A stretch of 64,000 bases of DNA from the NCBI GenBank assembly GCA_012837425.1, contig DURE01000004.1, positions 1 to 64,000 of the forward strand, written 5' to 3'. Position 1 is the stretch's first letter. Each line of letters starts with the position of its first letter. The notes beneath the pieces are model-generated. The model was given only the letters and a program-made list of their open reading frames with translations, was not told the DNA's origin and did no database searches. The translations under genes were made by a program, and so were the position numbers. Shown here in pieces: positions 27,409 through 28,262 of this stretch. The stretch comes from Clostridiales bacterium. GTDB taxonomy: Bacteria > Bacillota > Clostridia > Oscillospirales > CAG-272.

Positions 27409-28008
27409 TCAATATATTCTCATGCAGGCAACCACCTTGCCGAGTATCGACAATTCCTCTGCATATATCGGGGACATCAGGCGGTTCTCGGGCTGAAGGC
27501 GGACCCTCCCGGTCTCGCGGTAAAAGGTCCGTACCATCACCTCGTCCCCGAGCATTGCGACAACTATGTCGCCGTCCTCAGCCCAGTCGCGCCGATCGAC
27601 AATAACCACATCGCCGTCCATAATCCCGACCTCAATCATGCTCGGCCCGCTCACCTTCAGCGCAAATAAATTGCTCTGGTCGCAGCCTATGCTGTCGGCC
27701 ACAAAGTTGACATAGCCCTCGTAATTCTCAACATCGAGTATGGGTACCACCGCCGTAACCTTTCCAATAATGGGGACCTTCGTCTTGGTCCAGTCCGACA
27801 TTTTGAGCACCCGGATTGTGCGGCTTTTGCCGTCCTCCTTGTGGATATAGCCCTCGGTGTCAAGCCTTTGAAGACAGTGATATACCGTTGAGGTACTCTT
27901 AAACCCAAGTGCCCTCTGAATATCGCGGACGCTGGGCGGGTATCCCTGTTGGTCTATGGTTTCGATTATGTAATCAAGTGTGCTCTGTTCAAGCGCGGAC
28001 AGTTTCAT
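27409..28008 (-). CDS. lexA: LexA-family SOS repressor with altered self-cleavage residues
   Basis: 199 residues from the ATG at 28008. An N-terminal winged helix (about 1-65; SVRDIQRALGFKSTSTVYHC) and a C-terminal S24 peptidase-fold domain are both complete. LexA normally represses SOS genes until RecA makes it cut itself. Three key spots can be read: the cut site, usually Ala-Gly, is Ala86-Val87 in IGKVTAVVPIL; the serine is kept in VSGPSMIEVGI (Ser123); the catalytic lysine position is Arg160 in GDEVMVRTFYRE. Cut-site and lysine changes together suggest a repressor that cannot self-cleave, or does so poorly. The ribosome site is weak (AAAGAA) and sits beside a 10-bp inverted repeat. It could be a paralogue beside a normal LexA elsewhere. 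Confidence 0.85.
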   Translation of the reverse strand: MKLSALEQSTLDYIIETIDQQGYPPSVRDIQRALGFKSTSTVYHCLQRLDTEGYIHKEDGKSRTIRVLKMSDWTKTKVPIIGKVTAVVPILDVENYEGYVNFVADSIGCDQSNLFALKVSGPSMIEVGIMDGDVVIVDRRDWAEDGDIVVAMLGDEVMVRTFYRETGRVRLQPENRLMSPIYAEELSILGKVVACMRIY

Positions 28009-28021
28009 CGGTTCTTTTTTT

Positions 28022-28045
28022 GTTTGAAAGATTGCTCTTTCAAAC
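28022..28045. promoter_or_regulatory. 10-bp perfect inverted repeat before lexA start
   Basis: GTTTGAAAGA, TTGC, TCTTTCAAAC. It ends 14 bases before the ATG, so it could be an operator or an RNA hairpin that covers the ribosome site. No other copy was noticed in the window. Confidence 0.55.
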
Positions 28046-28232
28046 CCAAGCCCTCCGTTAATTCTTACTAAAAATATGTTTTTCATTCTGTGGTGTTTTA
28101 TCAAGCTAAAGGGATGCCGGGGGTCATATTACATAATCGTCTTTGTATTGTGGTCAAAAAGTCAATAAACAAAAGGATTCTTTGACAAGCCGCCATATCC
28201 AATTGCAGCCATAATTAGCATAACATGCGTAT

Positions 28233-28262
28233 ATTATACACGAATCCGCTTCCCCTTGTCAA
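28233..28262 (-). promoter_or_regulatory. Strong promoter reading into lexA
   Basis: On the - strand TTGACA, 18 bases, TATAAT: perfect boxes. Start near 28226. Confidence 0.75.

Follow-up and report, generated by a model that had tools for sequence, protein, structure and literature searches.

The window (the whole stretch of 64,000 nucleotides that was analysed) carries the gene on its minus strand, at positions 27409..28008 including the stop codon, with the ATG at 28008 and the stop codon at 27411–27409. Judged by its translation and its Pfam and NCBIfam matches, it encodes a LexA orthologue of 199 amino acids that appears to lack the self-cleavage machinery, and it is the sole LexA found in the genome holding the window (G000, an assembly of 1.85 Mb that is 97% complete). 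The winged-helix DNA-binding domain (residues 2–64, positions 27817..28005, minus strand) is intact and matches LexA_DNA_bind (PF01726, 1e-17). It is followed by the S24 peptidase/dimerisation domain (residues 79–193, positions 27430..27774, minus strand), which matches Peptidase_S24 (PF00717, 2e-30), likewise over the cut-off, and which is predicted to have an intact fold. Against the lexA equivalog model TIGR00498 the protein scores 198.7 bits, for a cut-off of 111. The AlphaFold2 model contains an intact LexA fold with a mean pLDDT of 88.3, lower values being concentrated in the cut-site loop (approximately residues 70–100). When it was compared to known structures with Foldseek, LexA structures ranked first, with PDB entries 1jhf and 1jhe among the matches.

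The cut-site region reads GKVTA-VVP. Ala86 (codon GCG, 27753–27751) is followed by Val87 (codon GTG, 27750–27748), so positions 27748..27753 of the minus strand specify Ala-Val where the Ala-Gly cut site is expected. The nucleophile, Ser123 (codon AGC, 27640..27642, minus strand), is intact and embedded in a GPSM motif, while the catalytic strand, EVMVRTFY, contains Arg160 (codon CGG, 27529..27531, minus strand) in place of the catalytic lysine. The initial annotation, which gave no strand, had named these residues with the right numbers and had described the serine and both domains as intact, all of which is confirmed. It had also considered that a nearby lysine might take over; the catalytic strand contains none, and from the cut-site region onwards there are only Lys83, Lys118 and Lys191, none of which would be an obvious substitute at residue 160. 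Of the features of a self-cleaving repressor the catalytic serine is thus present, but the Ala-Gly (or Cys-Gly) bond and the lysine are not, and because these two defining features were looked for and found missing, it would be wrong to class the protein among the self-cleaving SOS repressors. A normal second lexA, which had been proposed as a thing to look for, was not found among the S24 and LexA matches across the 97%-complete assembly: the remaining S24-like proteins proved to be a 264-residue XRE-S24 phage-type repressor and signal peptidase I. The recA gene is present.

Orthologues and the order of the lesions

The comparison drew on LexA orthologues of the genus, the family, the order and a number of named assemblies, 133 distinct proteins in all. 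The compared genomes are metagenome or draft assemblies (completeness is 93% for the sister species, G002, and 83% for the third species of the genus, G001), which makes the absences of a second lexA, of M78 peptidases and of LexA boxes provisional. In the alignment, another check that the initial annotation had suggested, 129 of the 133 proteins have Ala-Gly, Ser and Lys at the four positions and the window protein is one of four deviants, each of which has two lesions. The position-87 glycine is found in 132/133 proteins, with valine only in the window protein; the lysine is present in 129/133 and replaced by arginine in the other four. The sister species combines Arg160 with Gly123 and keeps Ala-Gly, while two genomes of another genus (G048 and G141) have Pro86 with Arg160 and keep Gly87. 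The LexA of G001 is fully canonical.

In a maximum-likelihood tree the four deviants form two separate clades, each with support of 100/100. The nearest outgroup of the clade formed by G000 and G002 is the canonical protein of G001, with which it groups at 100/96, and the second clade has a canonical close relative in G183 (70% identity to G048). The tree, which holds no cyanobacterial sequences, nests the window protein among Clostridia LexA proteins, beside its canonical relative. Downstream of lexA, all three species of the genus have the same genes for a permease and an ABC ATPase. On the combined evidence of tree, synteny and domains, the window protein is a LexA orthologue by vertical descent. 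As Lys160 to Arg is common to G000 and G002 and their second lesions differ, the lysine would have been lost first; the simplest history has Lys to Arg in their common ancestor, followed by Gly87 to Val in G000 and Ser123 to Gly in G002.

The changes at otherwise conserved positions lie almost only in the protease machinery, which is further support for a loss of cleavage. Forty alignment columns are conserved in at least 93% of the canonical proteins, and the window protein departs at five of these, all five among the 11 columns that make up the cut site, the motif around the serine and the strand with the lysine (Fisher p 7e-4); for the other deviants the shares are 5/7, 3/3 and 4/4 (p 0.011, 0.017 and 0.0036), these p-values being descriptive, since the machinery columns were picked after the data had been seen. 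The protein of G001 departs at none. The claim that this LexA is unable to cut itself is strengthened by the sister protein, which has lost the catalytic serine as well as the lysine, and by the lack of a second LexA among the matches; very likely, self-cleavage has been lost in the window protein.

Draft and metagenome assemblies invite the question of an assembly or sequencing artefact, an explanation that deserves hardly any credit, as Arg160 is common to an independently assembled sister and a parallel pattern recurs in two species of a second clade. Another proposal is residual self-cleavage, in which Arg160 would serve as an inefficient general base and the SOS switch would be slow or strongly attenuated. 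The K156R mutant of E. coli LexA cleaves at high pH, so that the exchange of lysine for arginine may on its own leave slow cleavage under such conditions. Arginine was acquired at this position in both independent clades, Ser123 is kept in G000 and in the second clade, and in the closest solved LexA (Thermotoga maritima, PDB entry 3k2z) the lysine is likewise missing at this column, where there is an alanine, with a lysine one residue later. However, the second lesions make slow cleavage less likely: the P1' residue is valine in the window protein where 132/133 proteins have glycine, P1 is proline in the second clade, and the nucleophile has become glycine in G002. The serine loss in the sister argues against residual cleavage for the clade, although the G000 protein itself keeps Ser123, and overall we consider residual cleavage improbable. 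Aside from this, the alanine at the catalytic lysine column means that self-cleavage of the T. maritima protein is perhaps also in doubt.

Selection on lexA was estimated by domain, with canonical pairs at similar distance as reference. Between G000 and G002 dS is 0.82 and dN/dS 0.126, and within the second deviant clade dN/dS is 0.103. For the DNA-binding domain, dN/dS is 0.065 (G000/G002) and 0.053 (second clade), with a canonical median of 0.081; for the protease domain the values are 0.170 and 0.127, with a canonical median of 0.102 and a range of 0.047–0.177. By these estimates lexA is a gene that stayed under purifying selection in the deviant clades, with normal constraint on DNA binding and, at most, a mild relaxation of the protease half. 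Some of this could be read as the signature of a relic on its way to loss and without remaining function: the protease-domain value of 0.170 is at the top of the canonical range, and a strong full-length LexA match is found in only 180/395 genomes of the family (84/171 of those of good quality), a pattern of patchy loss. A gene without function is nevertheless very hard to reconcile with a dN/dS of 0.126 at a dS of 0.82, a DNA-binding domain below the canonical median and the lack of any frameshift, nor does it fit the conserved synteny, the strong promoter and the conserved operator elsewhere in the genome that are described below.

Promoter, operator and remaining regulon

Upstream of lexA, positions 28233..28262 of the minus strand contain a probable promoter, TTGACA-N18-TATAAT, overlapping the palindrome-like sequence GTGTATAATATACGC and located from the sequence and its alignment with the sister species. 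The leader (window positions 28009–28262, minus strand), of about 220 nucleotides, has a palindrome-like -10 region (GTGTATAATATACRC) and is conserved in part in G002. It may encode a short peptide, MAxxGYGGLS, and it gave no credible Rfam match to a riboswitch or other known RNA. A LexA box of the form RAACN4GTTY is present within 250 bp upstream of the start in 67 of 92 orthologous lexA genes, including that of G001 (GTGAACAAATGTTTGC, at -72). No such box was found in this interval in G000 or G002, which instead have the TTGACA/TATAAT-like promoter and the partly common 5' leader. In the second deviant clade, two boxes are kept upstream of lexA in G048, while both are degraded in G141.

Other SOS genes also appear to lie outside the regulon. 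Each of G000, G001 and G002 has one recA gene, and none of these has a LexA box, that of the canonical G001 included, so that control of recA apparently dropped out of the regulon ahead of the loss of cleavage; a box is present at recA in G012, a genome from the same family. No box was found at uvrB in any of five genomes. With the self-box of lexA gone and recA and uvrB boxless, the suggestion that this repressor no longer answers DNA damage is favoured among the outcomes that had been put forward. These searches used strict box patterns, which can miss degenerate operators. A strict GAACN4GTTTG pattern yielded no regulon, its total matches not exceeding those of a reversed-pattern control and the matches examined in G000 and G002 all falling inside coding sequence. 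A Y-family polymerase as a leftover SOS target was also rejected: the gene was found in only G000 and G048 of the five genomes, and it has no LexA box.

One operator with a perfect LexA box has been retained. Searching for RAACAWWTGTTY gave two sites in G000, three in G001 and nine in G002, and in all three genomes one of these is at the promoter of the same operon, where TTGACA and TATAAT are followed directly by CAGAACAAATGTTCG, placing the conserved LexA-type operator GAACAAATGTTC immediately after the -10 region. Given these numbers of sites, we estimate the probability of a chance coincidence at less than one in a million. The first gene of the operon encodes a protein of 130 residues with weak similarity, below the curated cut-offs, to sigma-70 region 4 and ArpU-type regulators; the second encodes a small membrane-type protein of 78–87 residues. 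The same sigma-like gene has LexA-type boxes in the canonical genomes G150 and G322, and in G020, from which it follows that its control by LexA is probably older than the genus. In G150 and G020 this gene also adjoins a dedicated XRE-S24 repressor.

Further sites were noted during the search. A candidate second LexA target, a protein of the 134-residue class without a Pfam match, has a box in G001 (C28:69901) and in G322 (C106:573), and none was found at its gene in G000 (L211:16545–16949). A cassette that recurs across the family combines a sigma-region-4-like protein with, in most cases, a divergent XRE-S24 repressor and its TTCGGAAATSCGAA-like repeats, and in some cases with a small cysteine-rich protein; LexA boxes are present as well in some of these cassettes (loci L200, L202, L203, L204, L206, L263 and L264). 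The palindrome AAACAATTGTTT lies between divergent flavoprotein-like and AraC/cupin-like genes in G000 (C50:25306) and G002 (C11:33528), was not found in G001, and may represent either a LexA-like site or an operator unrelated to LexA.

Possible routes of release

The reading that we favour, and consider probable, is that this LexA was inherited vertically, has lost autoproteolysis and is retained as a DNA-binding repressor that cannot be induced and that governs a residual regulon. By parsimony, the sequences show that lysine was replaced by arginine in the ancestor of the two sister species; later, the P1' glycine was lost in one of them and the nucleophilic serine in the other. The LexA dimer would still bind the retained operator of the sigma-like operon, and RecA filaments would no longer trigger its cleavage. 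The remaining regulon would then be held down at a level set by the amount of LexA, through dilution and through synthesis from a strong, constitutive-looking promoter, and would not be switched by DNA damage. In the most economical model, LexA has turned into a fixed repressor whose regulon is very small. Against it counts that, if LexA never releases its target, retention of the operator and the operon would need some benefit.

The conservation of operator and operon, with lexA itself under selection, would be easier to understand if repression could be relieved in some other manner, by a housekeeping protease such as ClpXP, by modification, by a ligand or by a partner protein. There is a precedent in the non-cleavable LexA of Synechocystis, for which control by modification has been proposed, involving Ser173 (PMC7567884). 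Three M78 peptidase genes are present in G000, two of them beside XRE repressors. These two, however, adjoin repressors of their own, lexA has no linked candidate partner in the members of the genus, and no M78 peptidase was found in the 93%-complete genome of G002, which has suffered the same loss; we regard switching by another route as unlikely. The idea of inactivation by a partner protease, which had been raised at the outset, stands in part: an IrrE/ImmA-type LexA partner is rejected as a requirement, because no M78 peptidase was found in G002, while a protease of another kind could still serve. The DdrO/IrrE and ImmR/ImmA pairs resemble the present case in that the repressor is removed without self-cleavage, and such pairs occur elsewhere in G000, but no M78 partner lies beside its lexA. 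DdrO and ImmR are XRE proteins.

One M78 locus merits description on its own. On a 3.2-kb contig of G000 (C55; L130:31–2403), a Y-family polymerase gene is divergent from an XRE repressor gene, which is followed by an IrrE/ImmA-type (M78, HEIGH) peptidase gene; a perfect inverted repeat, CCCCTTGACACGAA/TTCGTGTCAAGGGG, spans both promoters. The locus resembles an ImmR/ImmA-type switch that would control an error-prone polymerase.

A bolder proposal makes the loss of cleavage a recurrent and selectively maintained step within the family, in which LexA is "locked" by the exchange of lysine for arginine plus a second lesion, and is rewired, with another mechanism of release, onto the operon of the sigma-like and small membrane proteins, independently of RecA. 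We hold this to be rather unlikely.

Relation to known repressors and meaning for SOS

A fixed repressor of this kind would have a natural counterpart in the LexA of Synechocystis sp. PCC 6803, which is non-cleavable, with Gly-Gly for Ala-Gly and Asp for Ser (PMC3091678, PMC7567884). In both cases the cut site and the catalytic dyad are broken, DNA binding is kept and the regulon no longer consists of SOS genes. The Synechocystis protein is cyanobacterial and has a large rewired regulon, whereas no large regulon is visible in G000, and the lesions here, in another phylum, are Gly to Val and Lys to Arg (with Ser to Gly in G002). By its sequence and position in the tree, the window protein is functionally like the Synechocystis LexA but convergent with it, having arisen in another lineage. 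In the open-access literature we found no report of a natural uncleavable LexA from Clostridia, the cyanobacterial case being the only one.

Compared to canonical Gram-positive LexA (the type of B. subtilis and Clostridia, with the box GAACN4GTTC), the protein is orthologous by sequence, domain order and descent and would recognise the same box, but it lacks the glycine of the cut bond, the catalytic lysine and the self-box of lexA, and recA is outside its regulon. The same two positions are altered in the E. coli lexA3 (G85D) and K156A proteins, which are uncleavable and keep the fold (PDB entries 1jhf and 1jhe); those are laboratory mutants that block SOS, while G000 represents a fixed natural state, one of a series of lesions that differ from species to species. 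Another S24 repressor uncoupled from RecA is IrvR of Streptococcus mutans (PMC7101444), but it is phage-related, keeps Ser and Lys and still cleaves itself independently of RecA.

Since the protein keeps its DNA-binding part and the genome still contains a LexA operator at another locus, the classical SOS system of this gut-type Clostridia genome seems to have degenerated to a repressor that is no longer turned off. As a strong LexA match is present in only 180/395 genomes of the family, the loss of cleavage may be one stage within a wider loss of SOS. LexA is usually taken to indicate that SOS is inducible, yet in two clades of Clostridia a strong LexA family score coexists with what appears to be a dead protease, beside canonical sister species, so that a lexA annotation in gut and related anaerobes is no safe sign of SOS. 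Together, these genomes offer a natural series in which the decay of SOS may be followed, from the canonical protein, through loss of the lysine and of a second residue, to the absence of lexA.
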